Part shown: positions 1 to 20,000 of the stretch, one piece after another
Position numbering within the stretch: the stretch's first letter is position 1
Layout of the letters: every line of letters begins with the position of its first letter
Virus record (IMG/VR): IMGVR_UViG_3300028844_003034
Coordinates: 1-20,000 of that record
Length of the DNA: 20,000 nt
Source: a virus
Reading direction: 5' to 3' (one strand)
Position numbers and translations under genes: made by a program
The notes under the pieces: generated by a model
The model's database searches: none
Seen by the model: the letters and a program-made list of their open reading frames with translations, nothing else
What the model was told of the DNA's origin: nothing

Positions 1-484
1 ACACTACACTTCATTGTGTGTATTAATAGTATTAATCATAGTTATTAATTCGTTTGAAGTAAACATAGTTAGATAGTTCATAGTAAAGTCGATTTAGTAT
101 ATTAGTTATTGTGTTACATATATATTATCCAAATAGACTATTGTTTTGTCTGTAAAATATAAGTAATAGTGTAGTACATGTCTAGAAAAAGTCAAACACT
201 GGGGCGTAATATACTGATAATCAAGGGTATATACGTAAGATCCTAGAGAAAAAGGGGGACCCGGTAAATTAAAAATCGTTTTTGTAACAGACTGATAATC
301 AGGGGGATAGGGGGTAACACTATACTCCAAAATATCTAATAACTTTTTTGTGACACTAGCCTTATAAGTAGTATAGTAACAGGCTTATGTCACCCCTTAA
401 GTAAAAAACTAGCTAAATCTGTGAGTATATAAGATATAAACGAATTTAAAGTAAAAGCTTTAGAAGCTAAGTAATAATATAACT
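1..484. other. Non-coding / control region upstream of the rightward gene set
   Basis: No coding region here can be supported. Frame 2 of the + strand stays open from base 2 to a TAG at 74-76 and reads as a hydrophobic tail, so the end of an upstream gene is possible but too short to claim. A minus-strand open frame at 106-330 (74 aa, Pro/Tyr-rich) has no recognisable family and is judged chance. The region contains G runs (around 250-260 and 301-315), the direct repeat ACTGATAATCA at 213-223 and 291-301, an imperfect inverted repeat at 350-361/382-393, and the short palindrome AGCTT-TAG-AAGCT at 456-468 just before the first gene. It probably carries the promoter for the rightward genes, but I could not fit a convincing promoter consensus. 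Confidence 0.5.
350..393. repeat. Imperfect inverted repeat
   Basis: The arms GTGACACTAGCC (350-361) and GGCTTATGTCAC (382-393) pair at 10 of 12 positions: a 6-bp outer stem, two mismatches and a 4-bp inner stem, with a 20-nt loop. A run of six T lies before the 5' arm (344-349), but there is no T run after either arm in the orientation an intrinsic terminator needs. An operator or an RNA structure in the leader of the rightward genes is more likely than a terminator. Its role is unknown. Confidence 0.35.
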
Positions 485-1033
485 ATGGCAATTATCTATT
501 CATATCCACCGATAGGCGATCTTTCAGGGTCAGACACAGTATTAGTAAATGACACATCGAAAGATAACAGCACTAAAACAGCTTCTATCGATGACATTAA
601 ATCTTATATTGGAGCTAATTTATTTAAAAAAGATATAACAATAACATCTGCTCAACTATTAAGCCTTAATGGAGGTGGATCAATAGAACTGATAGCTGCG
701 CCTGGAGCTGGAAAATTAATAGCCGTGCAAAACATGATTTATTTTTTAGATTATAACAGTGTAGCGTACAATTTTACTAATCCAGGAATAAGTGACACTA
801 TAACTTTTAAGATAGGTACAGTTAATACTTTTCAAAATCTCAGCCCAACAAACGATTTAAACTTAACAGCAGATAAGTATATTAGTTTTGATTTTCCTAA
901 CAACGATGAAAATGATGACATACAACCAAACGTAGCTTTTACTTTAGATGCTACTGCTGGTGTAACTGTGTCTCAAGGTAATTCACCGATTAAATTATCA
1001 ATTTTATATAGAAATGTAAACTTAAATTTTTAA
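485..1033 (+). CDS. Hypothetical protein, probable virion structural component
   Basis: This is a 182-residue protein of unknown function and the first gene of the rightward set. It is rich in Asn, Thr, Ser and Asp and low in Lys and Arg, with alternating hydrophobic and polar stretches that suggest a mostly beta fold. The segment around residues 55-80 (SAQLLSLNGGGSIELIAAPGAGK, shown here as SAQLLSLNGG then SIELIAAPGAGK) resembles, from memory, proteins of marine phages that sit among virion genes. There is no signal peptide, membrane segment or catalytic motif. The start codon follows an A/T-rich leader. The head module further right and a second Ser/Thr/Gly-rich protein at 2638 support a structural role such as a decoration, fibre or baseplate-associated protein, but this is inference. 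Confidence 0.72.
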   Translation: MAIIYSYPPIGDLSGSDTVLVNDTSKDNSTKTASIDDIKSYIGANLFKKDITITSAQLLSLNGGGSIELIAAPGAGKLIAVQNMIYFLDYNSVAYNFTNPGISDTITFKIGTVNTFQNLSPTNDLNLTADKYISFDFPNNDENDDIQPNVAFTLDATAGVTVSQGNSPIKLSILYRNVNLNF

Positions 1034-1088
1034 TCATACACCCTGCTCGGAAGTAGAGCAAACCAATTAATAACATAAACCAAAACCA

Positions 1089-1373
1089 ATGACACTATAT
1101 TATAAGACTAGCACGTGGAATAGTCAACCACAAATATCCGAAGACCAAATAGAATTTTGGAAACATATCGCTGATAAAACAAATTGGCGAATAGTACAAT
1201 TACCAAATGGATATTACCAAACTGAATATAAAGATCAAGATGAAACTTGGCAAGATGTAACTCGTAGAGAAACTCTTGAAAGTGCTGAAGCTGCAATTGA
1301 TGGTAGCATCGAACACTATACTAAAAAGCTTGAATTTGTAAAAGGTCCTAAGGTAGTAAAAACCTTTGAATAA
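1089..1373 (+). CDS. Small hypothetical phage protein
   Basis: A 94-residue soluble protein with unusually many aromatic residues (five Trp and five Tyr) and a charged, probably helical second half (ETLESAEAAIDGSIEHYTKK, residues 61-80). The first half reads like a small beta domain that compares and repeats the pattern W-x-IVQLPNGYYQTEYKD. No signal peptide, membrane segment or known catalytic motif is visible. It lies 55 nt after the previous gene and 39 nt before the glycosyltransferase, all in the same direction. Function is unknown; its place between a probable virion protein and a glycosyltransferase gives only weak context. Confidence 0.65.
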   Translation: MTLYYKTSTWNSQPQISEDQIEFWKHIADKTNWRIVQLPNGYYQTEYKDQDETWQDVTRRETLESAEAAIDGSIEHYTKKLEFVKGPKVVKTFE

Positions 1374-1412
1374 TACTAAAAAATAAAATTAAATTAAATT
1401 TACTCAAAAACA

Positions 1413-2645
1413 ATGAATGTATTATTAGTTTCACCCGATACCACTGAAAACCCATTCGGTGGTATGGGTGTTCAAATGAAAGGTCTGCAGTCAGCTGATT
1501 CTCCAATAAATTTTAAATTTCATTATGTAGAAACTCATTCTTTTCAAGAGCAAGATTCTGCAAGTAAAATGAAAATAAACGGAAAATTAGGTTATTATGG
1601 AGGAAATTATGACCACAAAAAGTTTACTGTAGATAGTTTGTACTCACAATTATTAAATTTTCCTAACATATCAAAACTAAAAGACATAGATATAGTAAAC
1701 TCTTTTGATGCTTCAACAGGGATGCTTGGGTATGTTATAGCTAAAGCTTTAGGAGTTCCACACGTGTGGACGCTTCAATTATCTAATATCTTTTTATTAA
1801 GAGATGTGCATGGAATAAAAGGTTCTGATTATTTTAAAATGTTAGAACTTAAATGCATGCAGCATGCTAACGCTGTAGTTCATGGATCAATGGAATATGC
1901 TAAAGAATTTTATTATTTAAACAACAATGTTTATACTATAAAATGTGGTATTGAGTTTGATAAATGGCAAAGCGTAAAAAAAGATTCTAAAAGTTTACCA
2001 GGTAGAAAAAACGCTAAAAAACTTTGTTATATAGGTAGAATAACTACTATGAAAAATGTACAAAGTTTAATGGAAACTAAACTACCTGAAGATGTTGATT
2101 TATATTTTATAGGTCACCACAGAGCTGGCAGTGAACTTATATATGAACATTTCAAAGACTTTGTTAAAGAAAATAAAAATGTACATTTTTTAGGTCCTAT
2201 TTATGGTGATGAAAAAATAAAAACATTAAAAAAAATGGATGCTGTTATAGTTCCATCTATTCACGAGCCATTTGGTATTGTTACATTAGAAGCTTTAGCA
2301 TCTAACAATATATTATTATCTTCTTTTAAATCAGGTATGGGAGAATACTTAAATGAAGATGTGGCAATAAATTGTGGTGTAACTCCAGATGAAATATCTA
2401 AAGCTATTTTAAAATGGAGTAAAATGACAAGTAAACAAATTAATAATCAAATTAAAAAAGGTCATGAGTTTTTAAAACCTTTTACTTGGGAGAATTCAGC
2501 AGCTACGCTGCATGAAATATATAAAAGAACTATAAAACAATATAATATACTTAAAGAATACAACACAGAGTCTAACAACAGTCCGCCTACATACGATGGC
2601 TTGACTAAACTTTTAAACAATAAAAACAAAATAAAAAATGAGTAA
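1413..2645 (+). CDS. GT-B fold glycosyltransferase (family 4/5-like)
   Basis: This 410-residue protein should transfer a sugar from a nucleotide-activated donor to an acceptor in the host cytoplasm. The N-terminus (MNVLLVSPDT...GGMGVQ, residues 1-21) is the glycine-rich start of the first Rossmann domain, as in glycogen-synthase-like and GT4 enzymes. The second domain opens with LCYIGRIT near residue 207, and the donor-binding E-x7-E motif is present as HEPFGIVTLE (E285 and E293) followed by ...SGMGEYL. Length is normal for GT4. The leader is A/T only (AAAATTAAATTAAATTTA, 1385-1402). The 3' end overlaps the next gene by 8 nt. It has no neighbouring sugar-nucleotide genes, so it probably uses host donors. 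Likely jobs are glycosylation of a virion protein or of host surface sugars. Donor and acceptor cannot be read from sequence. Confidence 0.9.
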   Translation: MNVLLVSPDTTENPFGGMGVQMKGLQSADSPINFKFHYVETHSFQEQDSASKMKINGKLGYYGGNYDHKKFTVDSLYSQLLNFPNISKLKDIDIVNSFDASTGMLGYVIAKALGVPHVWTLQLSNIFLLRDVHGIKGSDYFKMLELKCMQHANAVVHGSMEYAKEFYYLNNNVYTIKCGIEFDKWQSVKKDSKSLPGRKNAKKLCYIGRITTMKNVQSLMETKLPEDVDLYFIGHHRAGSELIYEHFKDFVKENKNVHFLGPIYGDEKIKTLKKMDAVIVPSIHEPFGIVTLEALASNNILLSSFKSGMGEYLNEDVAINCGVTPDEISKAILKWSKMTSKQINNQIKKGHEFLKPFTWENSAATLHEIYKRTIKQYNILKEYNTESNNSPPTYDGLTKLLNNKNKIKNE

Positions 2646-3555
2646 ATTTGACGTAACCGGTCAGGTAGCTGGTATAAGTTATACTGACGCAGAAAAAGCA
2701 AAAGCATCAGGTGCGGTTACTGATGCTGGATATTTAGGCGGAACAAGTTGGATAAAAACCCAACACGAAGCCGCTAGAGAATTTTCTAAAAATGGAATTT
2801 CTCAATTTAAACAATTAGAATTTTCAGATGCTGTAGAAGGATTAAGCATACCAGATGGTGAGTTTGACTTTTTTGATAAAACTTTTAACTTAACAAATAA
2901 AGGCGTAACAGATCTTTTAGTTGGTTTTAAATATAAATCAAGCTCTTCTAATCTTGACAAATCGGTCCCGATAGATTCAGTAGGCACGCCACTACCTTTA
3001 TATCTAAACAGTGCAATGTTTACAACAGATGGAAATGGTGGAATTACAACAAATACTATTGGAAGCGCCCAAGTTACAGCACAAAGTGGTTCTCCAACCC
3101 AAGGACCAATAGTAACGTCTACTACATTTTTAGTAAATACTGATTATACTAAATGTGGTCCTTACGGAACAACCTTTACGGCGCGATCGGCTGGTATTTA
3201 TACTGGTGACGCGTGGGGAACAAATTCTCCTCCAACAGATACAGGAGGAATGGCTGATCCAAATAGATATCACCAACCAGGAGACGCAGGTGAAAAGGCG
3301 GCTTTTGGATTTTGGCAATATGGAGATTCTACAGATAGTAAAGCAGGATTTAGATATATGATCGGGTTATATAATGGTACATCAGCGCTTTCTAGCGAAG
3401 CTAGTCAAGATTATGTTGTAAAATCAATGTCTATAAACACTACAACGGCTGGTGTAAGTCAATTAGTTTTACATTTTAGAAAAACAGCAGTAACATCTGG
3501 AGTAAGCATAAATCAACCAGATATTTTAATAACAACACTTAAAATTAATCTATAA
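2638..3555 (+). CDS. Hypothetical protein, probable virion structural component
   Basis: A 305-residue protein that starts 8 nt inside the end of the glycosyltransferase gene, so the two are probably translated together. The N-terminal 90 residues look helical and charged. Residues from about 95 to the end are rich in Thr, Ser, Gly and Asn with few charges and alternate like beta strands, as in phage tail, fibre or decoration proteins. No enzyme motif, signal peptide or membrane segment is seen. The high Ser/Thr content and the coupling to a glycosyltransferase make it a reasonable candidate acceptor for glycosylation, which is speculation. I do not recognise a named family. Confidence 0.72.
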   Translation: MSKFDVTGQVAGISYTDAEKAKASGAVTDAGYLGGTSWIKTQHEAAREFSKNGISQFKQLEFSDAVEGLSIPDGEFDFFDKTFNLTNKGVTDLLVGFKYKSSSSNLDKSVPIDSVGTPLPLYLNSAMFTTDGNGGITTNTIGSAQVTAQSGSPTQGPIVTSTTFLVNTDYTKCGPYGTTFTARSAGIYTGDAWGTNSPPTDTGGMADPNRYHQPGDAGEKAAFGFWQYGDSTDSKAGFRYMIGLYNGTSALSSEASQDYVVKSMSINTTTAGVSQLVLHFRKTAVTSGVSINQPDILITTLKINL

Positions 3556-3570
3556 TATAGATATTATTTT

Positions 3571-3604
3571 AAAATTAAATTAAATTAAATTAAATAAATA
3601 AAAT
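3571..3604 (+). promoter_or_regulatory. A/T-only AAATT-repeat leader before groEL
   Basis: The stretch before the groEL ATG contains no G or C and is built from repeated TAAAT/AAATT pentamers. Shorter versions precede the glycosyltransferase (1385-1402) and the coiled-coil gene (10042-10055), and A/T-only leaders without the exact unit precede 16052 and 18775. Bacteroidota commonly initiate without a Shine-Dalgarno pairing, so an unstructured A/T leader is a plausible ribosome-binding substitute. Promoter function is possible but not shown. Confidence 0.4.
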
Positions 3605-5146
3605 ATGATTGTAAAAAATCTAAACTTTGGCGACAAAGCTAAAGAACAGGTTTTTAACGGTATAGAAAAACTCACTAATGCTGTTAGCTCCACTTTAGGA
3701 GCTAGCGGCAAGTGTGTTATACTTGAAGATGAAACTGGAAAACCAATTATAACAAAAGATGGTGTAACAGTAGCAGACTCAATAATACTTTTAGATCCTG
3801 TAGAAAACATGGGAGCTACTTTATTAAAAGAAGCTGCCCGTAAAACAGTTAAAGAAGCTGGTGACGGAACTACAACTGCAACAGTATTAGCATATTCAAT
3901 ATTACAACACGCTGATAAAAAAGATATTAATACTCGTGAAATGAAAAACGGTATTGATTCTGCAGTAAAAAAAGTAGTAAAATACTTAAAAGAAAATTCT
4001 GTAAGTGTTACAGAAGACATGCTAGATCAAGTAGCAACTATTAGTTGTAACAACGATGCTGATTTAGGTAGTATTATTGGTGACGCTTTTAGAGCTGTAG
4101 ATAAAACTGGAGTAGTTGTAATGGAACCAACAGAAGAAACAGAAACATCTGTTGAAATTGTTGAAGGTGTTGAATACGACAAAGGTCTTGTTAACTCACA
4201 TTTTGTAACTAGTAAAACAAAACGAGTTGCTGAGTTAGAAAATCCTTTAGTGTTGATAGTGGAGTCTCCAGTTGAAAATATAAGAAAAATACAAAACGTA
4301 CTTGAGTTTGTAATAAAAAACAACAAGTCACTTTTAATTATCGCTGATTGTGAGCAAGCTGTAACTTCAGCTCTTGCAATGAATAAAGTAAAAGGTAATA
4401 TAAAAGTAAATATAATAAACGCACCTACTTATGGCGTTAATAAAAAAGATACACTTTCAGACCTAGCTCTTTTAACAGGAGCAACTGTTATTAATGAAGA
4501 TCTTGGTGATGATATGGATTTAATTCAATCTGAACATTTAGGTCAAGCAATAAAAAGTGTAACGACAGATACAGAGACAATTATACAAGTCGATAATAGT
4601 AATCCTAAAATTTCTGAACTTGTTGAGTACTTGAAAAAAGAGCTTAGTAAAACTAAAAACTCAAATGAAATTATAAAGTTAGAAAAGCGTTTAGCTCGTG
4701 TTTCTGGTAAAGTTGCTATTGTAAAAGTTGGAGCAAATTCTGAAATTGAATTAAAAGAAAAACAAGATAGAGTCGAAGACGCTATTTGTGCTACTAAAGC
4801 CGCTATTAAAGAAGGTATTGTTTCTGGTGGTGGTATTGCTCTTTTAAATGCTTCACAAAACATAGAAGCAGACAACGAAGGCGAACGCGTGTTGCTTGAT
4901 GCTATTCAAGCGCCGTTTAAAACTATACTAAGCAATGCAGGTGTTGATTCTTACAAAATATCTAAAAGTGTTGGTAAAGGTTTAGATGTGGTTACAGGAA
5001 ATATGGTAAATATGATAAATTTTGGTATTATTGATCCACTGTTGGTAACTAAAAGTGCTATTCGTAACGCGGCTTCTGTAGCTACAACAATATTATCTAC
5101 TGATTGTGTAATCAATAACGTTAGAATCGATGAAAGCAATAGGTAG
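3605..5146 (+). CDS. groEL: Phage-encoded GroEL (group I chaperonin, Cpn60)
   Basis: This 513-residue protein is a full-length ATP-dependent chaperonin subunit, expected to form a double ring that encloses unfolded proteins with GroES. Equatorial motifs are intact: ITKDGVTVAD with D52, GDGTTTATVLA at 86-96 with D87, RVEDA with the ATP-hydrolysing Asp at about 392 (D398 in E. coli), SGGGIALL, and GIIDPLLVTKSA near the C-terminus. Differences are notable. TLGPKG is TLGASG, the apical binding segment GYLSPYF is GLVNSHF (so Y199 and Y203 are replaced by Leu and His by eye alignment), and the usual C-terminal Gly-Gly-Met tail is absent. It lies upstream of groES, the reverse of the usual bacterial order, and overlaps it by 17 nt. 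The likely clients are phage virion proteins. Confidence 0.97.
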   Translation: MIVKNLNFGDKAKEQVFNGIEKLTNAVSSTLGASGKCVILEDETGKPIITKDGVTVADSIILLDPVENMGATLLKEAARKTVKEAGDGTTTATVLAYSILQHADKKDINTREMKNGIDSAVKKVVKYLKENSVSVTEDMLDQVATISCNNDADLGSIIGDAFRAVDKTGVVVMEPTEETETSVEIVEGVEYDKGLVNSHFVTSKTKRVAELENPLVLIVESPVENIRKIQNVLEFVIKNNKSLLIIADCEQAVTSALAMNKVKGNIKVNIINAPTYGVNKKDTLSDLALLTGATVINEDLGDDMDLIQSEHLGQAIKSVTTDTETIIQVDNSNPKISELVEYLKKELSKTKNSNEIIKLEKRLARVSGKVAIVKVGANSEIELKEKQDRVEDAICATKAAIKEGIVSGGGIALLNASQNIEADNEGERVLLDAIQAPFKTILSNAGVDSYKISKSVGKGLDVVTGNMVNMINFGIIDPLLVTKSAIRNAASVATTILSTDCVINNVRIDESNR

Positions 5147-5390
5147 AAATTTGATAGTAAACAAACATAAGATAGGTTCTTCTAAAACAAAAGGAGGTCT
5201 TATATTGGCAGAAAAACAAAGAGACGATATAAGATATATAACTGGTGATGTAGTTTCTGTAGGAGATGAAGTTAGTGGTATCAAACAAGGTGATAAAATA
5301 TATTACGATAAACATGCAGGGCATGGAATAGAGTTTAAAGATAATAAATATATTGTTATCAAACTACAAGATGTAGTTGTTGTTTTATGA
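5130..5390 (+). CDS. groES: Phage-encoded GroES co-chaperonin (Cpn10)
   Basis: An 86-residue co-chaperonin, a little shorter than E. coli GroES (97). The mobile loop is recognisable as SSKTKGGLILAEKQ (residues 17-30); the hydrophobic tripeptide IVL of E. coli GroES becomes LIL at 24-26. The second half keeps the Cpn10 pattern GDVVSVGDEV...IKQGDKIYYDK followed by a short roof-like loop (AGHGIEF) and the final strand YIVIKLQDVVVVL. The ATG lies inside the last codons of groEL (17-nt overlap), and the stop overlaps the start of the next gene (ATGA), which implies translational coupling across all three. It is expected to cap the GroEL encoded next to it, possibly also the host's. Confidence 0.94.
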   Translation: MKAIGRNLIVNKHKIGSSKTKGGLILAEKQRDDIRYITGDVVSVGDEVSGIKQGDKIYYDKHAGHGIEFKDNKYIVIKLQDVVVVL

Positions 5391-5833
5391 AAAGGCTAGA
5401 AGCAAGAGATATTAAAGATATGAACTTGCTAAAACATTATCGAATAATAAGACGATGGGCTTGTAGAAACAACAACCTTTTAGATTCAGATTTAGAAGTT
5501 TTAATATATCTTGACTGCTTTGGTCTTTTTAATAAAAAAGATTTTAAAGCTGGTATTTATTCTTACAGTTGGGATAATAGGCGATTCAATAGATTATTAA
5601 AAAATGGTTGGATAATAGTTTGGAGAGAAAGAAACAGAACGACGCAAAAATATAATCTATATAAAACTTCAGTTAAATGTCAGCATTTAATATCACGCAT
5701 GTATAGAATCATGCTAGGTGAAGAAGATATACCTACTAGCACCAGACGTAATAGCATAATGAAAGGCAAAACTTACAGTGATAAAGTTTTATCATTTGCT
5801 ATTAATAAAGTCAATAAAGATAAAAACAGATAA
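5387..5833 (+). CDS. Putative winged-helix DNA-binding protein
   Basis: A 148-residue basic protein. The order of predicted elements fits a MarR-like winged helix: a long helix with DSDLEVLIYLDCFGLF (residues 38-53), a KKDFKAG turn, a recognition-helix candidate WDNRRFNRLLKNGWI (62-76), then a basic beta wing WRERNRTTQKYNLYK (79-93) and a C-terminal helix (HLISRMYRIMLGEED). From memory, similar proteins occur in uncultured marine phages. It overlaps groES by 4 nt (ATGA), so it is coupled to the chaperonin genes. It could regulate phage or host transcription, or act as a DNA-binding packaging or structural factor. The fold is inferred from pattern only, and the target is unknown. Confidence 0.7.
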   Translation: MKRLEARDIKDMNLLKHYRIIRRWACRNNNLLDSDLEVLIYLDCFGLFNKKDFKAGIYSYSWDNRRFNRLLKNGWIIVWRERNRTTQKYNLYKTSVKCQHLISRMYRIMLGEEDIPTSTRRNSIMKGKTYSDKVLSFAINKVNKDKNR

Positions 5834-5834
5834 T

Positions 5835-6887
5835 ATGGGAAAAGGTTTTAAATTACCAGGCGTGTCTCCATTAAAACAAGAAGGGGATAAATTTGGTTTA
5901 CCATCATTCGATAGATCAGAATATAGATCATCAGGCGGTTCGTATTCAAGCCCACAAGATCCTAGCACTTACTTTACACCTGGTAATTATTTCGCTGAAG
6001 GTATAGGCTCGTTTGGTAATATATCTTCTGAATATATTAAAAATAAAAAACCAGAAGTAAATCCTGACGGTAGTATTGGTAATATAGGCGGTGCTAGAAC
6101 TAGTCAAACTCTTGCAACTAATTTAGACAAACGTATTGCTGCAGCTGAAGCTAAAGGTGATAAATCTAAAACAGAAAGATTAAAAGGTAAAAAGCAAAGA
6201 CGTAGTATGCGTGATACTACTAAAGCTGAAATAAATAAGAAAAAAAATAAAGAAATAGAAGCTAAGCTTCAAGAAAGATTAAACGAAAGATTAACTAAAA
6301 AAGGTATAGACCCATCTACAGTAAGTACATCTCAAGGATCTGAATACAAAAAGTTATTTGCTAATATGGCAAGTAATCTTGGCGTACAAACAGATTTAGA
6401 TACTAGTACTGATGGAACAAGTGCAATGAATATGAAAAAAGAATCACCGCTAGGCTTCGTTCCTAGTCAACAAATGGGGCAACCTCAAGCTTTTAGCTAT
6501 GACGTACCGCAACAAGCAAATATGATGGGTACAGCTCAACCTGTATTTAATCAACAAACAATGGGTATGGCAGAAGCTGCTTTTGGTAACCAAGCAATGA
6601 GACAAGCGTCTGTTGGTAGCGCGTTTCAAGTTAGTGCAAAACAAGAAGCTGCATTTGGACCTGACTCTAAGTTAGCAAAAGAGGATCCAGCTCAAGCTAA
6701 AAAAATATATGATGGTATTAAAGCTGGTGATAACTCCCCAGCTGCTAGCTATGAAAACCCACAAACTGTTGTAGATCACTCAGGAGGTTATGTAGCTGCA
6801 AAAGCCTTAGACACATTTGGGCAACTAGCAGGTAATTTTATTACAAAAAAATACGGACAAGGAGAAACTGAAGTTGAACAAAAATAA
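5835..6887 (+). CDS. Hypothetical Q/M/A-rich protein with N-terminal FKLPG-SPLKQ motif
   Basis: A 350-residue protein of unknown function. I chose the ATG at 5835, one base after the previous stop, over one 57 nt upstream, because the upstream stretch lies inside the winged-helix gene and because residues 1-15 then read MGKGFKLPGVSPLKQ, a motif seen again in this window (8107, 8623; SPAKQ in the 7366 gene). Residues about 98-160 are strongly charged and helical, a likely coiled coil. Residues about 200-280 are rich in Gln, Met, Ala and Gly with the repeated unit EAAFG (twice). Such low-complexity composition with no enzyme motif fits an internal virion or injected protein, but that is a guess. 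Confidence 0.75.
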   Translation: MGKGFKLPGVSPLKQEGDKFGLPSFDRSEYRSSGGSYSSPQDPSTYFTPGNYFAEGIGSFGNISSEYIKNKKPEVNPDGSIGNIGGARTSQTLATNLDKRIAAAEAKGDKSKTERLKGKKQRRSMRDTTKAEINKKKNKEIEAKLQERLNERLTKKGIDPSTVSTSQGSEYKKLFANMASNLGVQTDLDTSTDGTSAMNMKKESPLGFVPSQQMGQPQAFSYDVPQQANMMGTAQPVFNQQTMGMAEAAFGNQAMRQASVGSAFQVSAKQEAAFGPDSKLAKEDPAQAKKIYDGIKAGDNSPAASYENPQTVVDHSGGYVAAKALDTFGQLAGNFITKKYGQGETEVEQK

Positions 6888-6903
6888 GAATAAATAAATA
6901 ACT

Positions 6904-7107
6904 ATGGATCATAAAATAGAAAAATTAATTAGAAAACCTGTTCTTGAAGGGCAAGTAGGTGAATCACATGTTTGGGACGGTCCATTAGATACCAGTGGTT
7001 TTCCAATGGGAGATGGTAGTAGTTCTGGTATTACTGGAATGAAACTTAAAATGGCTAAGTGCAAATATACACCAGGACCTATAACTAAAAAAGCTCAAGG
7101 TGCCTGA
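6904..7107 (+). CDS. Small hypothetical protein
   Basis: A 67-residue protein with a basic start (KIEKLIRKP), a Gly/Ser/Asp-rich middle (PMGDGSSSGITGMKL) and a lysine-rich end. No membrane segment or known motif is seen. It sits 16 nt after the previous gene, and the next gene begins inside its last codons, so it belongs to the same transcription unit. Codon use is A/T-rich like its neighbours, which supports it being real. No function can be assigned. Confidence 0.6.
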   Translation: MDHKIEKLIRKPVLEGQVGESHVWDGPLDTSGFPMGDGSSSGITGMKLKMAKCKYTPGPITKKAQGA

Positions 7108-7363
7108 AGTAAATAAAAAAACTTTAAAATGCAATAAACCTAGAAAAACACCAAGTCATAAGACTAAATCGCATGTTGTTAAAGCTTGCGAAAATGGTAA
7201 AGAAAAAATAATTAGGTTTGGGCAACAAGGTGTAAGCACTGCCGGTAAGAAGCAAGATAAAAAATCAAAAGCAAGGCGTGCTAGCTTTAAAGCTCGTCAT
7301 GCAAAAAATATTAAGAAAGGTAAAATGTCCGCCGCTTACTGGGCTGACAAAGTAAAATGGTAA
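7100..7363 (+). CDS. Small basic protein, conserved in marine phages (recalled); GTG start
   Basis: An 87-residue, very basic protein (about one third Lys or Arg). The first in-frame start is a GTG that overlaps the end of the preceding gene by 8 nt; no in-frame ATG occurs near the N-terminus, so the GTG is the best choice. The segments VVKACENGKEKIIRFGQQGV (residues 26-45), RRASFKARHAKN (59-70) and the closing YWADKVKW pattern match, from memory, a small family often seen in marine phages and cyanophages, where function is unknown. The charge suggests nucleic-acid or virion contact, but no DNA-binding fold is evident. Confidence 0.7.
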   Translation: MPEVNKKTLKCNKPRKTPSHKTKSHVVKACENGKEKIIRFGQQGVSTAGKKQDKKSKARRASFKARHAKNIKKGKMSAAYWADKVKW

Positions 7364-7365
7364 TT

Positions 7366-7950
7366 ATGGAAAAAGGACACTTTGGTCAGTACTCTGGCAA
7401 CGCAAGACACTCACGTACTCCAGTTACAAGAAGTAACTATAGATCTTCAGTAGCAGACGATGCTGCACATATTCATTATCTAAAAGAAGATATCAACTAT
7501 GACGCTAAACATGGTCATAGTGATGAGAATATGACTGCAGACGAAAAGCATATATCTAAGCTAGCAGGTGATATGAAGTATGATAAAAAACATCATGGTT
7601 CACCAGCTAAACAACTAGATGAAAGAGAAGGTAGTAGAGGTACATCAATCACAGAAGGTATAGAGCTCGGTGAAGCTACTGCTAGCTTGTCTGATATGTA
7701 CAAAAGAGATGCAAAAATGAAAGTACCGTCTTTTCCTGAATTTACCACAACATCTGCAGGTTACACTCAAGTAGGTGGCGAAGGTAGTATTGAGCCGTTT
7801 CCAAGTGCAGTGTATATTGGCAAAGGAACTAGTGTGCCAGGTGTTGGTAGAACTTTTTCAGAAAAAGAAATTTCTGCTGGTAGAAAAAAATACGAAAATT
7901 TACAAGCTAGAAAACAAAAAGCTTTAGATTATTTAGCTGCAAATCAATAG
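7366..7950 (+). CDS. His-rich hypothetical protein, paralogue of the 9075 gene
   Basis: A 194-residue protein. The ATG at 7366 lies 2 nt after the previous stop; another in-frame ATG at 7357 would add three residues and overlap that gene. Residues 35-49 and 62-76 form two imperfect copies with a 27-residue period (H-I-x2-L-x2-D-x2-YD-x-KH), giving a His/Asp-rich segment that ends in GSPAKQ (78-83). The second half is shared with the 9075 protein, including TEGIELGEATASLSDMYK (96-113), encoded by 50 identical bases, and similar C-termini. No enzyme motif or membrane segment is visible. The clustered His and Asp could bind metal, but this is untested. A structural or accessory virion role is a guess from context. 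Confidence 0.75.
   Translation: MEKGHFGQYSGNARHSRTPVTRSNYRSSVADDAAHIHYLKEDINYDAKHGHSDENMTADEKHISKLAGDMKYDKKHHGSPAKQLDEREGSRGTSITEGIELGEATASLSDMYKRDAKMKVPSFPEFTTTSAGYTQVGGEGSIEPFPSAVYIGKGTSVPGVGRTFSEKEISAGRKKYENLQARKQKALDYLAANQ
7651..7700 (+). repeat. 50-bp perfect direct repeat, copy 1
   Basis: These 50 bases are identical to 9351-9400, 1,700 bp downstream, and lie in the same reading frame of the two paralogous genes. Flanking bases diverge quickly (one mismatch in the ten bases before). Perfect synonymous-site identity inside otherwise diverged paralogues suggests recent gene conversion, or selection on the nucleotide sequence. Confidence 0.95.
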
Positions 7951-7951
7951 C

Positions 7952-8107
7952 ATGAAATCAAAAGGTTTAGGTGACGACATAGCTAAGTTTACTAAAGCTA
8001 CTGGTATTAAAACAGTGGTTGATAAAATGGCTGAAGGTCTAAACATAAACTGTGGCTGTAATAACAGGCAAGAGTGGTTTAACGAAAAATTCCCATACAG
8101 AAACTAA
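7952..8107 (+). CDS. 51-aa Cys-containing hypothetical protein
   Basis: This small open frame starts one base after the previous stop, and its TAA overlaps the next ATG (TAATG at 8105-8109). It reads MKSKGLGDDIAKFTKATGIK, then TVVDKMAEGLNINCGC and NNRQEWFNEKFPYRN. From memory, short proteins with GLGD-x-I-x-K-x-TKATGIK near the start and CGC...FPY near the end recur in Bacteroidota and marine phages, usually unannotated. The CGC pair could bind metal or form a disulfide. The perfect packing between its neighbours and the recognisable motifs support it as real despite its size. Confidence 0.72.
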   Translation: MKSKGLGDDIAKFTKATGIKTVVDKMAEGLNINCGCNNRQEWFNEKFPYRN

Positions 8108-8412
8108 TGGCATTTAAACTAACACCTCCATTTCCAATAGACAACACTCCAATATATCAAGTTGATATGGAAGATGGCGTGTTAGGCAAAGCTAATAACA
8201 ATGGTACTATTATTATAAATGATAAAGTAGGGCCAGATAAAATTGATGAAGTTGTTGCTCACGAGAAAGTACATATTGCACAAATGCGTAGAGGCGATCT
8301 TGATTATGACGATAAAAACGTTTATTGGAAAGGTAAAACAATACCTAGGTCAAGCATAAAAGAAGGGGCAAAAGACTTGCCATGGGAAGCTGAAGCATAT
8401 AGAAACGCATAA
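8107..8412 (+). CDS. Putative small HExxH zinc metallopeptidase-like protein
   Basis: A 101-residue protein with a zinc-protease signature: VVAHEKVHIAQM places H52, E53 and H56 as HExxH on a predicted helix. The downstream LPWEAEAYRN (residues 91-100) offers Glu 94 or 96 as a third ligand in a gluzincin-like arrangement. The N-terminus is MAFKLTPPFP, echoing the FKLPG starts of the 5835 gene and the mini-ORF at 8623. There is no signal peptide, so it would act in the cytoplasm or in the virion. At 101 residues it is much smaller than most peptidases and may be a minimal domain. It is coupled at both ends (TAATG). Possible roles are virion protein processing or cell-wall entry; substrate is unknown. 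Confidence 0.7.
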   Translation: MAFKLTPPFPIDNTPIYQVDMEDGVLGKANNNGTIIINDKVGPDKIDEVVAHEKVHIAQMRRGDLDYDDKNVYWKGKTIPRSSIKEGAKDLPWEAEAYRNA

Positions 8413-8618
8413 TGAAGCCATCTAAGAAAGGATATTTAAGAAACAGCCCTGATGTTAACAAGCCAGTAAATAAGATAATAGGTGGCAAGATAACAATGAA
8501 AGGAGTTAACTTTAAAGTATTAGGTACTGACGATAGAGGTTACACTAAGATTATGTACCCGGGATATGACTACACGTTTCCTGGCGCTAAATACGTTATA
8601 GAAAAACGTTTAAAATAA
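8412..8618 (+). CDS. Small basic hypothetical protein
   Basis: A 68-residue basic protein whose ATG overlaps the previous TAA by one base (TAATG). The sequence alternates charged and hydrophobic residues as in a small beta barrel (KITMKGVNFKVLGTDDRGYT, then KIMYPGYDYTFPGAKYVIEKR). There are no membrane segments and no motif I recognise. Tight coupling to the HExxH protein suggests a shared role, but nothing more can be said. Confidence 0.65.
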   Translation: MKPSKKGYLRNSPDVNKPVNKIIGGKITMKGVNFKVLGTDDRGYTKIMYPGYDYTFPGAKYVIEKRLK

Positions 8619-8622
8619 AACT

Positions 8623-8655
8623 ATGGTATTTAAATTACCAGGACTAAAAAAGTAA
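8623..8655 (+). CDS. Mini-ORF (10 aa) repeating the FKLPG start motif; possible gene remnant
   Basis: A ten-codon frame reads MVFKLPGLKK. It shares 14 identical bases (8629-8642 with 5847-5860) and the residues FKLPG with the start of the 350-aa gene at 5835, and resembles MAFKL-x-PP at 8107. It begins 4 nt after the previous stop. It could be the 5' remnant of a deleted paralogue or a true leader peptide. Alone it cannot be called a functional gene. Confidence 0.35.
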   Translation: MVFKLPGLKK

Positions 8656-8698
8656 AAAAATAAGTGATAATATTAGTATAACAATTTAATCTAATATT

Positions 8699-9070
8699 AT
8701 GAAAAAACTATTTTTAGCGCTATTATTTAATTTAATTACATTAACAGCTTTTAGCCAAGACAATTTCGCGGGTTGGTGGGAAAGCAAAACATCTAAATAC
8801 ATTACAATGATTTATGTAGGAGACTACGGTGTATCACAGGTTGTTAACTATAACCCTTGGAATGAAGATGTTATAGAAGAAAAAATAATCAAGAAAAACA
8901 AAAATACATTTGTAACACACTTATTTAATAAGCGTAATGGTTATTCAGTAAAAGTAAAATACAAACTAAAAGATAAAAATAACTTAATATGTAAGTTTAC
9001 TGGTGATTTAAAAAGAACAGTACATCTTACTAGGTATAAGTTTGATTTAAATAATAAACTAAAAACATAA
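8699..9070 (+). CDS. Secreted hypothetical protein with Bacteroidota-type signal peptide
   Basis: A 123-residue protein. Residues 1-19 are a textbook signal peptide: MKK, a hydrophobic core (LFLALLFNLITLT), then AFS with cleavage before Q20-D21. A Gln directly after the cleavage site is typical of Flavobacteriia secreted proteins and is a host clue. The mature part is small, Lys-rich and probably beta (WWESKTSKYITMIYVGDYG; YSVKVKYKLKDKNNLICKF), of no family I can name. There is no lipobox Cys. It should be exported to the periplasm or beyond, so possible roles include superinfection exclusion, lysis support or host-envelope change. It may be a captured host gene. The 43-nt gap before it is A/T-rich. 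Confidence 0.75.
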   Translation: MKKLFLALLFNLITLTAFSQDNFAGWWESKTSKYITMIYVGDYGVSQVVNYNPWNEDVIEEKIIKKNKNTFVTHLFNKRNGYSVKVKYKLKDKNNLICKFTGDLKRTVHLTRYKFDLNNKLKT

Positions 9071-9074
9071 AACG

Positions 9075-9647
9075 ATGCCGTATTCACCAATGCAAAAACA
9101 TTGCATACAAATGAAAAATCATAAAGGTAAAACTACCGGGATTATGATGGAAGGATCTGTAGCACATCAAGAGTCTGCAGCTCAAGAAAAGAAAAACTTA
9201 CTAAAAGATATGCCTATCGATAGTAAAGCTTCAGCTATGGAAATGTCTCCATATAAAATGGGTCATGAGTCACCAGCAGAATTTACTGGTATGAGTGGAG
9301 GTTCAGCTTTACATCAAAAAGATGAAAGATCTGGTAATGGAAAATCAATGACAGAAGGTATAGAGCTCGGTGAAGCTACTGCTAGCTTGTCTGATATGTA
9401 TAAAAAAGATTCAAAGTTAAATATTAAAGATTTTCCTCGACTAAGAGAGTCTTTAACGCAGCCTGGAATGTTTCAAGTAGAAGGAAGTCCAACTGGTCAT
9501 AATGCTTATCTTGGACGAGGTAGTTTTTTACAAGGTGATGTTGGAAGCTGGTATACATCTGAACAAGTTAATGAGGCTAAAAATAAACATCAAGGCTTAG
9601 TTAATAGAAAAACTAAAGCTAAAAAGTACCTAGCTTCAAATATGTAA
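9075..9647 (+). CDS. Hypothetical protein, paralogue of the 7366 gene
   Basis: A 190-residue protein homologous over its second half to the 7366 product. The shared block TEGIELGEATASLSDMYK is followed in both by a K/D-rich linker, a Gly-rich middle and a similar basic helical C-terminus ending ...YLASNM here and ...YLAANQ there. Its own first half is different: a short Cys/His/Lys-rich start (KHCIQMKNHKGKTTG) and the Pro-Tyr/Met segment EMSPYKMGHESPAEF, which carries two SP motifs like SPAKQ and SPLKQ in other genes of this cluster. There are no membrane or enzyme motifs. The pattern suggests a duplicated module with a swapped N-terminal region. Function is unknown. Confidence 0.75.
   Translation: MPYSPMQKHCIQMKNHKGKTTGIMMEGSVAHQESAAQEKKNLLKDMPIDSKASAMEMSPYKMGHESPAEFTGMSGGSALHQKDERSGNGKSMTEGIELGEATASLSDMYKKDSKLNIKDFPRLRESLTQPGMFQVEGSPTGHNAYLGRGSFLQGDVGSWYTSEQVNEAKNKHQGLVNRKTKAKKYLASNM
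9351..9400 (+). repeat. 50-bp perfect direct repeat, copy 2
   Basis: Identical to 7651-7700 and in the same frame within the paralogous gene. Downstream, the copies differ within a few bases (TAAAAAAGAT here, CAAAAGAGAT in copy 1). Confidence 0.95.
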
Positions 9648-9648
9648 A

Positions 9649-10044
9649 ATGAAAAAACTTTTAAGTCTTTTATCAGGTGGCATAATTAAAGACGTAGGTA
9701 ATGTAATAGATAAACTTACAACTACAGATGAAGAAAGATTAGCTGCTAAACAAAAGATTCAAGAGTTGTTAGAAAAAGCAGATCAAGATGCGCAGACTCA
9801 AATTACTGAGCGCTGGAAACTTGATATGCAATCAGATTCGTTTTTATCAAAGAATATCCGCCCGCTAGTGTTAATATATCTTACTGTTATATTTACGGCA
9901 TTAGCATTTTTCGATGGTAACATTGGTGGGTTTAAAGTAGCTGAAGAATATATCCCAATATTTCAATCGCTATTAATTACAGTATACGGCGCTTATTTTG
10001 TAGGTCGCACTTGGGAGAAGTCAAAAAAAAGTAAACAAGAATAA
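9649..10044 (+). CDS. Holin-like membrane protein (GTA holin 3TM-like)
   Basis: A 131-residue membrane protein. The N-terminal 60 residues hold a short hydrophobic start (KKLLSLLSGGIIKDVGNVI), the signature-like DKLTTTDEERLAAKQKIQEL and a charged helix. Two clear transmembrane segments follow at about 71-88 and 102-119, with SKNIRPLVL before the first and VYGAYFVGRTWEKSKK after the second. This layout matches, from memory, the gene-transfer-agent/phage holin family with up to three membrane segments. A holin would assemble in the inner membrane and time lysis. No endolysin is recognised nearby, so the assignment rests on the protein itself. It begins one base after the preceding stop. Confidence 0.8.
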   Translation: MKKLLSLLSGGIIKDVGNVIDKLTTTDEERLAAKQKIQELLEKADQDAQTQITERWKLDMQSDSFLSKNIRPLVLIYLTVIFTALAFFDGNIGGFKVAEEYIPIFQSLLITVYGAYFVGRTWEKSKKSKQE

Positions 10045-10055
10045 AATTAAATTAA

Positions 10056-10325
10056 ATGTCAAAGTCAATTACAGCTGAAGAGCTTAAACAAGTTAAAGAT
10101 CAACAAGCAGATTTAGGTCAAGTAGTAAATCAAATAGGTCAACTAGAAGCTAACAAGCACGCTTTGCTACATAAGATTGCTGGTATTAACGAAGGTATTG
10201 AAGATACTAAAAAGCAATTAGAAGAAAAGTATGGCTCTATTAATATTGATTTAGAAACCGGAACTTACACTGAAATCGAAAAAGAAGATGATAGTGAGCT
10301 AAGTGTTGTTAAATCAGAAGACTGA
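10056..10325 (+). CDS. Small coiled-coil protein
   Basis: An 89-residue acidic protein. Residues about 5-60 have a strong heptad pattern (AEELKQVKDQQADLGQVVNQ; IGQLEANKHALLHKIAGINE; IEDTKKQLEEKYG), so it should form a helical hairpin or oligomeric coiled coil. The tail is very acidic (EIEKEDDSELSVVKSED). From memory, close relatives are common in marine phages and have no known function. It follows a short A/T-only leader (TAAATTAAATG) after the holin-like gene, and its TGA overlaps the next ATG. Confidence 0.7.
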   Translation: MSKSITAEELKQVKDQQADLGQVVNQIGQLEANKHALLHKIAGINEGIEDTKKQLEEKYGSINIDLETGTYTEIEKEDDSELSVVKSED

Positions 10326-10552
10326 TGAGTGCTATTATAAGAAAAATCAGTATTGGTTCTGATTATAAAAATGATGCTATGCATTATTCGTTAGGTCAAG
10401 AAGTATACGGCGGTCATAATATTAATAGTATTTTATTTGATGAGCTAGATAATTCTTACAATATTTACATCAAAAAAAACGATGAAGTAATGCCATGGAA
10501 AAAGTTTAATTCTAATATGGCTATATCTGTTGAGTACGATTTAAAATACTAA
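10325..10552 (+). CDS. Small hypothetical protein
   Basis: A 75-residue protein sharing one base with the previous stop and one with the next start, so it lies in a strictly coupled run. It reads as a small beta protein (IIRKISIGSDYKNDAMHYSL; GQEVYGG; YNIYIKKNDEVMPWKKF). From memory the pattern RKISIG-x-DYK...GQEV-x-GG recurs next to terminase genes in uncultured marine phages. No function is known. Confidence 0.65.
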   Translation: MSAIIRKISIGSDYKNDAMHYSLGQEVYGGHNINSILFDELDNSYNIYIKKNDEVMPWKKFNSNMAISVEYDLKY

Positions 10553-11157
10553 TGAGAAGTGTATATGATTTTATAATCAAACCATTTGGAGAAAAGTATG
10601 ATAATGAAATTAAAGTTGGAAACAAAAAATTAATACTTAACTCTAACATAGAAAGTTATAAGTTTGTAAACAATAAAGCTATTATAGTATCTACACCGTT
10701 AGCGGTAAAAACCCCTATTGAAGTAGGGGATGTAGTCATAGTGCATCATAATATATTTAGACGCTATTATAACGAAAAAGGCAAAGAAGTTAATAGTAGT
10801 AAATTTTTTAAAGAAGACATGTACTTCTGTCAATTAGACCAAATATATTTATATAAAAATAGCTCTACGTGGAAAGCGTTTAGCGATAGGTGTTTTGTTG
10901 CTCCTGTTGTTGATACCGACATTTTAGAATTGTCTAAAGAAAAAAAGCATATTGGTTTTTTACGCTATACAAACAAATCTTTAGAAAGTAAAAATCTAAA
11001 TAAAGGCGATGTTGTTGGTTTTACACCTAACAGTGAGTTTGAATTTATTGTAAACGACGAGCTACTGTATTGTATGCGAACAAAAGATATTGTAATCAAA
11101 TATGACAACAAAAAAAACGAAATTAAATATAATCCAAGCTGGGCAAAAAGCAGTTGA
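10552..11157 (+). CDS. Putative tandem GroES/Cpn10-like protein
   Basis: A 201-residue protein that reads as two Cpn10-like halves. Half one (about 1-102) has a start VYDFIIKP like GroES VIVKR, a loop KVGNKKLILNSN where GroES has its mobile loop, then KAIIVSTPL...IEVGDVVIVHHN (GD at 59-60) and YFCQLDQIYLYK as last strand. Half two (about 112-186) repeats this: DRCFVAPV, IGFLRYTN, LNKGDVVGFTPNSEFEFIV (GD at 152-153), LLYCMRTKDIVIKYD. The GroES pattern VKVGDIVIFND...VLIMSESDILAI fits both. No database search was possible, and divergence is large. It may be a co-chaperonin, an inhibitor or cap, or only share the fold. It is coupled to the gene before it and overlaps the next by 56 nt. Confidence 0.7.
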   Translation: MRSVYDFIIKPFGEKYDNEIKVGNKKLILNSNIESYKFVNNKAIIVSTPLAVKTPIEVGDVVIVHHNIFRRYYNEKGKEVNSSKFFKEDMYFCQLDQIYLYKNSSTWKAFSDRCFVAPVVDTDILELSKEKKHIGFLRYTNKSLESKNLNKGDVVGFTPNSEFEFIVNDELLYCMRTKDIVIKYDNKKNEIKYNPSWAKSS

Positions 11158-11377
11158 TGAATTAATTAAAGTTGCTGAAGAAAAAATCATTACTAACACT
11201 GAAGATGATGTTTCTGCAGATAGACTTAAAAACGCGGCTGCAACTAAAAAGCTAGCTATATTCGATGCTTTTGAAATACTGTCTAGAATAGAAGAAGAAA
11301 AAAATATACTTGAAGACAAACCTAAAGAAACTAAAGAGAAAAGTTTTAAAGGATTTGCTGAGGGTAGATCAAGATAA
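11102..11377 (+). CDS. Small helical protein, possible terminase small subunit
   Basis: A 91-residue, mainly helical and charged protein directly upstream of terL, sharing the TAATG with it. The segment DDVSADRLKNAAATKKLAIF (residues 38-57), then DAFEILSRIEEEKN, is recalled from similar loci in marine phages. Position is the main reason to suspect the small terminase subunit; no helix-turn-helix is obvious, and the protein is short for that role. The ATG lies 56 nt inside the previous gene, and there is no other in-frame ATG downstream near the N-terminus, so this long overlap seems real. Confidence 0.7.
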   Translation: MTTKKTKLNIIQAGQKAVDELIKVAEEKIITNTEDDVSADRLKNAAATKKLAIFDAFEILSRIEEEKNILEDKPKETKEKSFKGFAEGRSR

Positions 11378-13599: not shown

Positions 13600-13602
13600 T
13601 AA

Positions 13603-16020: not shown

Positions 16021-16051
16021 AAAACTTTTAATTATTTAATTATATTATATT

Positions 16052-17245: not shown

Positions 17246-17256
17246 AAACATTTATT

Positions 17257-18696
17257 ATGAGTTTAACTCCAACATTTGGTAGTATTGTACCAAGTCAAAA
17301 GCAAGAGTTATTAGATTCAAACTATTTGGTATTCAACAATGGTACCACTGGAACTGACACTTTTGCTCAACAATACTTACCTGAAATTTACGAACAAGAA
17401 GTAGAGCGTTATGGAAATCGTACACTCTCTGGCTTTTTGAGAATGGTAGGTGCAGAAATGCCCATGACCTCTGACCAAGTAATTTGGTCTGAACAAAACA
17501 GACTGCACATTGCTTATGACGATTGTACTCAAACTGGTGCTGGTAACACTATTAACGTTAACCCTACTGCTGCTGCAGATATAAAAAACGTTATTTCACC
17601 AAGAGCTACAGTTGTTATTTTAGACAGCAGTGGTAATGAAGTTAAAGCGTTAGTAACGGCTTCAGATACAGATCCTGCAAACCCAGTTATTACTGTTAAA
17701 CCTTATACATCTGCAACTTTAGCTTCCGCTGGTATTACTGGCACCGTTAAAGTGTTTGTCTATGGTTCTGAGTATGAAAAAGGTTCTGTTACACCAAACA
17801 ATACAGCTACAGCTGGTCCTGCTAATGGGTATATTAGTGTTGATCCATCTTTTACTCAATATTCAAATTCTCCAATTATTGTTAGAAACAAATACACTGT
17901 AAATGGTTCTGACATGGCTCAAATTGGTTGGATTGAAGTTGCTACTGAAGACGGAACATCTGGGTATCTATGGTATTTAAAAGCTGAGTCTGAAACAAGA
18001 TTGCGTTTTGAAGATTACCTAGAAATGGTATGTGTTGAAGGTGAAGTAGTAAGTGGTGGTTCTTCTATCACAACTGCAAAAGGTACTCAAGGTTTATTTG
18101 CCGCTATCGAAGATAGAGGTAACGTGAACGTTGGATTTACCGCCGCTCCTTCTATTGGCGACTTTGATAATATTCTTAAGAATTTAGACACTCAAGGAGC
18201 TATTGAAGAAAACATGCTATTTTTACAGCGCCAAACTTCTCTTGATTTTGATGATATGCTAGCTGCAGTAAATGCTGCTTACTCTGGTGGTACTTCTTAT
18301 GGTATCTTCGAAAATTCAGAAGATATGGCATTGAATTTAGGATTCAGCGGTTTCCGCAGAGGTTCTTATGACTTCTACAAAACTGACTGGAAATATCTAA
18401 ACGATGCTTCTACACGAGGTGCTATTACTGGGGTAAGTTCTATTGAAGGTGTTTTAGTGCCAGCTGGAACTTCAACAGTATATGATCAAATCCTAGGCAC
18501 GAACATTCGTCGTCCATTCCTTCACGTACGTTATCGAGCTTCTCAAGCTGATGATCGCCGCATGAAGTCTTGGTTGACTGGTTCTGCTGGAGGTGCATTT
18601 ACATCTGATTTAGACGCTATGGAAGTTAACTTCCTGTCTGAAAGATGTTTAGTAACTCAAGGTGCTAACAACTTTGTTCTTTTCAAAGGAGTGTAA
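17257..18696 (+). CDS. Major capsid protein (HK97-fold expected)
   Basis: A 479-residue protein that follows the scaffold and is itself followed by a strong terminator hairpin, as expected for a highly expressed capsid gene. The N-terminal arm (SLTPTFGSIVPSQKQELLDS; then QQYLPEIYEQEVERYGNRT near 45-65) and the long beta-rich insertion (NVNPTAAADIKNVISPRATV and on, about 95-190) resemble capsid proteins of crAss-like and related marine phages, from memory. The C-terminal part holds a helical GIFENSEDMALNLGFSGF and GSYDFYKTDWKYLND. Codon choice here is less A/T-biased (for example ACT, GCT, GGT, AAC), consistent with high expression. The insertion at 95-190 may be a surface domain. Identification is by order, length and composition. 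Confidence 0.88.
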   Translation: MSLTPTFGSIVPSQKQELLDSNYLVFNNGTTGTDTFAQQYLPEIYEQEVERYGNRTLSGFLRMVGAEMPMTSDQVIWSEQNRLHIAYDDCTQTGAGNTINVNPTAAADIKNVISPRATVVILDSSGNEVKALVTASDTDPANPVITVKPYTSATLASAGITGTVKVFVYGSEYEKGSVTPNNTATAGPANGYISVDPSFTQYSNSPIIVRNKYTVNGSDMAQIGWIEVATEDGTSGYLWYLKAESETRLRFEDYLEMVCVEGEVVSGGSSITTAKGTQGLFAAIEDRGNVNVGFTAAPSIGDFDNILKNLDTQGAIEENMLFLQRQTSLDFDDMLAAVNAAYSGGTSYGIFENSEDMALNLGFSGFRRGSYDFYKTDWKYLNDASTRGAITGVSSIEGVLVPAGTSTVYDQILGTNIRRPFLHVRYRASQADDRRMKSWLTGSAGGAFTSDLDAMEVNFLSERCLVTQGANNFVLFKGV

Positions 18697-18711
18697 TTAT
18701 TGAATAAAAAT

Positions 18712-18746
18712 CTTAGGGTCGCTAAATATAGTGGCCCTAGGTTTTT
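18712..18746 (+). terminator. Intrinsic terminator after the capsid gene
   Basis: The arms CTTAGGGTCGCT (18712-18723) and AGTGGCCCTAGG (18730-18741) form a 12-bp stem with three G-U pairs around a 6-nt loop, followed directly by TTTTT. An A run precedes the 5' arm, so the structure could also work on the other strand. It lies 16 nt after the capsid stop and probably limits or sets the level of downstream transcription. Confidence 0.8.
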
Positions 18747-18774
18747 ATTATTAACTATTTAATTTTATTATATC

Positions 18775-19623: not shown

Positions 19624-19635
19624 ACAAGTGATAAT

Positions 19636-19668
19636 AGTATAGGGCTCGTCTACTCGAGCCCTTATACT
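19636..19668 (+). terminator. Hairpin after the 18775 gene (weak terminator or processing site)
   Basis: The arms 19636-19648 (AGTATAGGGCTCG) and 19655-19668 (CGAGCCCTTATACT) form a 13-bp stem with one bulged base around a 6-nt loop. The stem is strong, but no T run follows on the + strand (TAAAAAAAA instead) and none follows on the other strand. It may be a pausing, RNA-processing or mRNA-protecting structure rather than a true intrinsic terminator. Confidence 0.5.
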
Positions 19669-19682
19669 TAAAAAAAATATAA

Positions 19683-20000
19683 ATGGCAATAAACGTAGAT
19701 ACAGTATATAAAACCGTTTTGCTAATACTCAATAAAGAACAAAGGGGTTATATAACTCCTGATGAGTTTAATAAAACAGCTACGCAGGTTCAATTAGATA
19801 TATTTGAACAATACTTTGATGATTTAAATCAACAACTACGCGTGCCACAAGCAGACGTTGATTATGCTGATAGGCAGCTTAATATTGATGAAAAAATATC
19901 ATTTTTTAAAGCTCACGGCGTTTGTACTTATGACGCTGTAAATAAGTTTTGGCAGCTACCTATAACTGTAAATGGTAGCGTATCAGGATTTCAAGTTCTA
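19683..20000 (+). CDS. Partial phage structural protein (probable connector), cut by window edge
   Basis: The frame is open from the ATG at 19683 to the last base, giving 106 residues with no stop. It starts MAINVDTVYKTVLLILNKEQ and continues RGYITPDEFNKTATQVQLDI and FEQYFDDLNQQL. From memory this N-terminal pattern (NKEQRGYITP-x-EFN...Q-x-IFE-x-YF-x-DLN) is one of the most frequent ones just downstream of capsid genes in marine and Bacteroidota phages. The context suggests a head-tail connector or other structural protein, but the family has no proven role that I know. The A-rich bases before the ATG act as its leader. Confidence 0.78.
   Translation, partial: MAINVDTVYKTVLLILNKEQRGYITPDEFNKTATQVQLDIFEQYFDDLNQQLRVPQADVDYADRQLNIDEKISFFKAHGVCTYDAVNKFWQLPITVNGSVSGFQVL

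Follow-up and report, generated by a model that had tools for sequence, protein, structure and literature searches.

RESULTS

Layout of the chaperonin cassette

The window, by which we mean the whole 20-kb stretch analyzed, comprises positions 1 to 20,000 of the viral record IMGVR_UViG_3300028844_003034. It begins with short ORFs, a glycosyltransferase gene, and an uncharacterized 305-aa ORF. These are followed by groEL, groES, an ORF at 5387 to 5833, small ORFs, a holin gene, a second GroES-like gene (10552 to 11157), and genes for the large terminase, a P22-type portal, and a probable capsid protein. The features discussed below are as follows.

3605..5146, + strand: groEL, phage group I chaperonin large subunit, 513 aa (Pfam Cpn60_TCP1, 4.6e-56; phrog_5725, 4e-129)
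3692..3709, + strand: TLGASG loop (TLGPKG in E. coli, residues 30 to 35)
4187..4204, + strand: apical segment LVNSHF (YLSPYF in E. coli, residues 199 to 204)
4292..4294, + strand: Gln230, equivalent to E. coli L234, a GroES-contact and substrate-binding residue
4376..4381, + strand: Ala258-Met259, equivalent to E. coli V263-V264, in helix I
5130..5390, + strand: groES, co-chaperonin, 86 aa (Pfam Cpn10, 1.5e-13)
5130..5146, + strand: 17-nt groEL/groES overlap, in which the same bases encode the GroEL end ...DESNR-stop and the GroES start MKAIG
5387..5833, + strand: third cassette ORF, function unassigned (phrog_17028, 3.5e-8), overlapping groES by 4 nt
10552..11157, + strand: second GroES-like protein, tandem, about 200 aa (phrog_13932, co-chaperonin GroES, 7e-22, full length)
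17257..18696, + strand: probable major capsid protein and candidate client, 479 aa, 51.9 kDa (phrog_13704)

The ORFs at 3605 to 5146 and 5130 to 5390 confirmed the preliminary description of this DNA, which had placed groEL before groES with a 17-nt overlap. The terminase and the capsid-like protein match those of Flavobacterium, Cellulophaga, and Maribacter phages, and because of these matches we consider that the virus probably infects marine Bacteroidota.

A 45-nt stretch containing only A and T (3560 to 3604), with repeated AAATT units, abuts the groEL start. We found no clear terminator or ribosome site within it, and the signals 5' of groEL were limited to unremarkable AT-rich inverted repeats. 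A group 1 glycosyltransferase gene (1413 to 2645) lies shortly 5' of the cassette and was not detected beside groEL in the relatives compared.

The phage GroEL keeps its ATP site and lacks the Gly-Met tail

The PF00118 match of the window GroEL spans residues 23 to 505, which corresponds to a full-length Cpn60 domain. Its AlphaFold model (pLDDT, 83.9) matches GroEL chains over their full length (about 515 columns). We set the residue register with MAFFT and HMMER alignments and use E. coli numbering throughout. The preliminary description had noted that the ATP-site Asp residues remain; we found D52, D87, and D398 in place, together with T89 to T91, and all of these are kept in 81/81 family members listed. 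The median dN/dS in the family is 0.06 for the whole of groEL and 0.05 for the apical domain, indicating strong purifying selection. Judging from these sequences, groEL and groES very probably encode a working GroEL-GroES pair.

The window GroEL terminates in ...DCVINNVRIDESNR and, as first described, has no GGM tail. A Gly-Met-rich C-terminal tail is missing from 81/81 family members listed and from most phage GroELs, whereas hosts have it. Among the proteins compared, this loss is not special to the window pair because nearly all phage GroELs examined share it. E. coli GroEL with altered C termini could not substitute for the wild type (PMC11978752), and by this analogy loss of the tail likely matters functionally. 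Relatives whose overlap is 1 to 4 nt simply end in ...NNLRA or ...NNLRVS, and so the new C terminus of the window GroEL looks like a by-product of the gene overlap.

The reversed gene order is a shared phage trait

We compared the best 80 of at least 594 IMG/VR relatives (68 to 79% identity). All 80 have groEL and then groES, always adjacent and overlapping, by 17 nt at 72 loci, 20 nt at 4, 4 nt at 3, and 1 nt at 1. GroES is 86 to 87 aa long across these relatives, and GroEL is without the GGM tail in every one. The same order is found in Flavobacterium phage elemo, MW202828, and Panino. Because all listed relatives and these other phages have groEL before groES, the reversed order is, on the loci compared, a shared phage trait and not peculiar to the window phage.

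For the host comparison, we used 32 Bacteroidia loci for gene order and GroES and 31 clean GroELs for residues. At one locus (L121) an antisense ORF was picked, and its GroEL was thus omitted from the residue counts; at another (L134) the mechanical ORF start extends upstream into groES. We found groES upstream of groEL in 32/32 host loci, with a gap of mostly 18 to 133 nt. Neither the order nor the overlap of the phage genes is therefore shared with the sampled host operons. The window GroEL is only 38 to 42% identical to the host proteins.

In the tree, the family forms one clade (100/98) within a phage clade that is separate from hosts (99/96). Of the cellular GroELs, those of the Bacteroidia type lie nearest, and the other phages have long deep branches whose resolution is poor. 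The basal immuto phage retains the groES-then-groEL order together with Y199 and Y203.

Phage elemo (Elemovirus, NC_062741) resembles the window phage in its groEL-groES order with a 1-nt overlap, its lack of a GGM tail, and its short-roofed GroES. It also has a related terminase, capsid-like protein, and third cassette gene (g5387), and a second GroES beside the terminase. In contrast, its GroEL is 40% identical and keeps Y199 and L234, its cassette lies on the strand opposite its neighbors, and its GroES mobile-loop segment has 25 residues (28 in the window). MW202828 (Podoviridae sp. ctfjg026, Manatee Spring) likewise has groEL and then groES, overlapping as annotated, a terminase that is 63% identical, and a second GroES-like gene at the terminase, but it keeps Y199 and TLGP, and its GroES is only 40% identical.

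Bacteroidetes phages with GroEL have been described (Nishimura et al. 2017; PMC5332604). As summarized in PMC9611531, a link between GroEL phylogeny and the order of the genes was reported for virioplankton (Marine 2017, ISME J 11:2479); as far as that summary goes, those genes resemble the window pair in being group I chaperonin genes on marine phage genomes. Ocean phages were thus already known to carry a GroEL-GroES of the kind found in the window.

Fixed replacements in the apical domain

The preliminary description had aligned Y199 and Y203 by eye with Leu and His, and both alignments agreed: Y199 is L195 and Y203 is H199 in the window GroEL. S201 is replaced by N197, and F204 is kept. 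The reported change of TLGPKG to TLGASG was also correct, with P33 as Ala and K34 as Ser. Further apical changes had been overlooked: Q replaces L234, A replaces V263, M replaces V264, and T replaces L259, with position 259 being variable within the family.

A33, Q234, A263, and M264 are present in 81/81 family members listed (pairwise identity, ≥64%), a count that comes from related sequences and does not represent 81 independent events. Position 199 is Leu or Ile and position 203 is His or Asn in the family, and N201 occurs in 79 of the 81 listed. GTDB MAG contigs yielded another seven relatives, with identities as low as 47%, and all of them keep Q234, M264, and A33. In the 31 Bacteroidia hosts, P33, K34, Y199, Y203, V263, and L234 (rarely V) show essentially no variation, positions 263 and 264 are V-V in nearly all, and the tails are Gly-Met rich. 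The apical residues of the window are thus absent from the hosts sampled.

In the hydrophobic groove (positions 199, 203, 204, 234, 237, 259, 263, and 264), F204 and L237 are kept, Q234 and H/N203 are polar, and L/I199, A263, and M264 are nonpolar. We identified 220 positions that hosts conserve and that have the same residue in E. coli; the family has lost 63 of them, in many cases to a single fixed replacement. Groove positions are lost more often (5/8 versus 63/220 overall; Fisher P = 0.045), an enrichment that is only marginal given how widely the apical domain has diverged (32/82 conserved positions lost); 26 equatorial positions are changed. Replacing such apical residues in E. coli GroEL is said, from the 1994 work of Fenton, to block binding of both substrate and GroES. 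In the crystal structure, the GroES triad contacts GroEL L234, L237, and V264 (PMC3514286), and two of these three are changed in the family (L234 to Q and V264 to M). V264 and Y203 contact non-native substrate (PMC10723157).

Since dN/dS is about 0.06 and the residues are fixed across 81/81 members listed, the apical changes are, as read from the alignment, fixed and not decay. Nor is the observation due to chance, because 80/80 relatives listed have the same gene order and likewise lack the tail, and several replacements are fixed in 81/81. We concluded that the pair is a genuine, well-conserved variant and not one phage's anomaly.

The GroES lid

The window GroES (PF00166) has a Cpn10 barrel and a mobile loop with the hydrophobic triad LIL. 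We aligned the family with the 32 host GroES proteins, E. coli GroES, and T4 gp31. The roof segment has 11 residues in 81/81 family members listed, compared with 15 to 20 in hosts, 20 in E. coli, and 13 in gp31. The mobile-loop segment has 28 to 29 residues in the family, compared with 25 in 32/32 hosts and 28 in gp31, so that the window segment is 3 residues longer than that of hosts; the gp31 lengths are approximate owing to very low alignment identity. Roof shortening alone is also found in elemo, Panino, and DAC20, but the longer mobile loop is not (26 residues in Panino, 25 in the others).

In T4 gp31, the roof loops are missing, the mobile loops are longer, and the chamber is about 8% larger and folds the 56-kDa capsid protein gp23 (PMC6318259). 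The window GroES is like gp31 in its reduced roof loop, longer mobile loop, and hydrophobic triad (LII in gp31). The two differ in that gp31 pairs with host GroEL, whereas the window supplies a phage GroEL, and their sequence similarity is very low.

The preliminary description had proposed that groEL and groES are co-adapted, with IVL to LIL in the mobile loop as the matching change. That particular change is weak evidence: the triad stays hydrophobic, and IVL is the E. coli state. In Bacteroidia hosts the triad is mostly III, so that going from IVL to LIL does not describe a departure from the host sequence. Within the phage family, the triad is LLL, LML, or LIL and shows little covariation with the apical states (mutual information, 0.03 to 0.24). 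Given this and the fact that T4 gp31 works with E. coli GroEL through LII, we rejected the triad change as evidence of co-adaptation. The broader proposal is better served by the family-conserved L234Q and V264M at the GroES-contact triad and by the lid loops. It is plausible that the pair is tuned to phage clients.

A second GroES-like gene and a third cassette gene

The second GroES-like ORF sits two genes upstream of the terminase gene. Its product has a full-length match in 12/12 long family contigs and in phi38:1, Calle_2, elemo, Panino, and MW202828, and Pfam Cpn10 was detected in 15/16 relatives (best, 1.8e-4). phi18:3 and phi46:3 have the second GroES-like protein and a single Cpn10 and no GroEL; their relative of the second GroES-like protein exceeds the Pfam Cpn10 cutoff. 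A PDB profile search with the tandem protein gave no useful match. Because the profile comparison of the two GroES-like proteins was weak (probability, 20%; E, 0.0012), the link between them rests on PHROG and Pfam and on the phi18:3 and phi38:1 relatives.

Since the related phi18:3 and phi46:3 have no GroEL, the wider lineage can do without one. The occurrence of lids with or without a phage GroEL fits lids that would be able to work on host GroEL, with the phage GroEL being gained or lost.

The ORF at 5387 to 5833 is conserved (about 148 aa) and overlaps groES by 4 nt in 81/88 loci, and elemo and Panino have distant copies of it close to groEL. Pfam and PHROG searches gave no function for it. 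It may act with the chaperonin, or it may merely be co-expressed.

A probable phage-dedicated folding chamber and its alternatives

We consider it fairly probable that the pair forms an ATP-driven, phage-dedicated chamber that a lid of its own would close, with a changed docking site and a larger interior, and that would serve bulky phage proteins. According to this model, GroEL subunits with intact ATP-site residues would form one or more heptameric rings that hydrolyze ATP, and the phage GroES would cap them through its conserved hydrophobic mobile-loop triad. The apical groove and the GroES docking site would be respecified relative to those of the host by L/I199, H/N203, Q234, A263, and M264. 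As in T4 gp31, the mobile loops of the lid would be extended and its roof hairpin nearly absent. From the lid loops and the missing GGM tails, we infer a chamber that would be roomier and would prefer its own lid over the host lid. Its clients would probably be large phage structural proteins, such as the 52-kDa capsid-like protein. Whether lid and client specificity have really changed is, in our judgment, an evenly balanced question.

The same genes could instead be an ordinary phage pair that provides a general folding supplement, with apical changes that arose by long-branch drift and were then fixed, with no lid or client specificity. Such drift would suit a phage clade that is long diverged and that has changed at many nonapical positions too (the 26 equatorial ones). 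Other phage GroELs also have odd apical residues (G203 in elemo, A234 in Calle_2), and IVL to LIL is mild. However, drift does not readily account for the identity of Q234, A263, M264, and A33 throughout the listed family or for the persistence of Q234 and M264 in relatives down to 47%. Moreover, a hydrophobic-to-Gln change at a GroES contact is expected to impair capping unless compensated. We regard an ordinary pair as a serious but rather unlikely alternative. Recent capture and rearrangement of a host groESL operon is far harder to credit. It would agree with Bacteroidia-type GroELs being the nearest cellular group, but identity to hosts is just 38 to 42%, the family lies within the phage clade apart from hosts, and no sampled host shares the order or the residues. 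On these grounds (host residues, operon order, identity, and tree), we rejected a host origin for the gene order or the apical residues.

A further alternative concerns the ring-ring interface, which could be eroded so that the protein works as a single-ring chaperonin, perhaps with little need for a lid, as in phages EL, OBP, and AR9. Equatorial contact segments around 103 to 110, 428 to 436, and 460 to 470 are shortened or variable. Hosts conserve R452, A109, S463, and V464, whereas the family varies at the first two and has replaced or deleted the other two. Among the altered contact sites are the four that carry the mutations of the single-ring GroEL SR1 (PMC5653362). On the other hand, K452 and D461 in the window could preserve a salt bridge, and because gap placement at 460 to 467 is ambiguous between alignments, we treat single-ring behavior only as a hypothesis. 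The window chaperonin shares with those of EL, OBP, and AR9 a phage origin and possibly weakened ring-ring contacts, but those proteins act without a GroES (PMC9598537; PMC7185714) and are far more divergent (39% identity to GroEL for the window versus 22% for EL). The window encodes a GroES whose triad is intact, and in the listed relatives the groES gene is always adjacent, which argues against co-chaperonin-free function. An eroded, largely lid-independent ring is thus improbable, and single-ring operation as such is compatible with the dedicated-chamber model that we prefer. It is similarly doubtful that the phage has a single-ring chaperonin that rewritten lid docking has made orthogonal to that of the host, with an enlarged chamber and two alternative lids for different virion proteins, one lid being the short-roofed operon GroES and the other the tandem protein encoded close to the terminase gene.

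L234, Y203, and V264 help define client and GroES binding in GroEL and are nearly fixed in the bacteria sampled. A large, clearly selected phage clade that replaces them and has its own modified lid would be a natural experiment on how chaperonins alter their specificity for lids and clients. It would also bear on why a phage brings its own GroEL despite that of the host. If the phage pair works, it is a candidate orthogonal folding chamber.

The candidate capsid client

The capsid-like protein is encoded downstream of the portal gene, and phrog_13704 is annotated as a head and packaging, virion structural protein. A model built from 26 close relatives had a pLDDT of 42, and the fold was not confirmed. 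Its place as a client of the chaperonin is suggested by analogy with T4 and by gene neighborhood, and we propose only tentatively that it could be the main one.

Family members in MAG contigs

Contigs binned in Euryarchaeota, Maricaulis, Alphaproteobacteria, Aliivibrio, and Rickettsiales MAGs hold family members (L092, L095, L096, L098, and L099). These are probably misbinned viral contigs, or else they reflect a wider host range. The Flavobacteriaceae MAG of L094 (G001) has four Cpn60 genes, one of which is host type, and the others score like phage copies.
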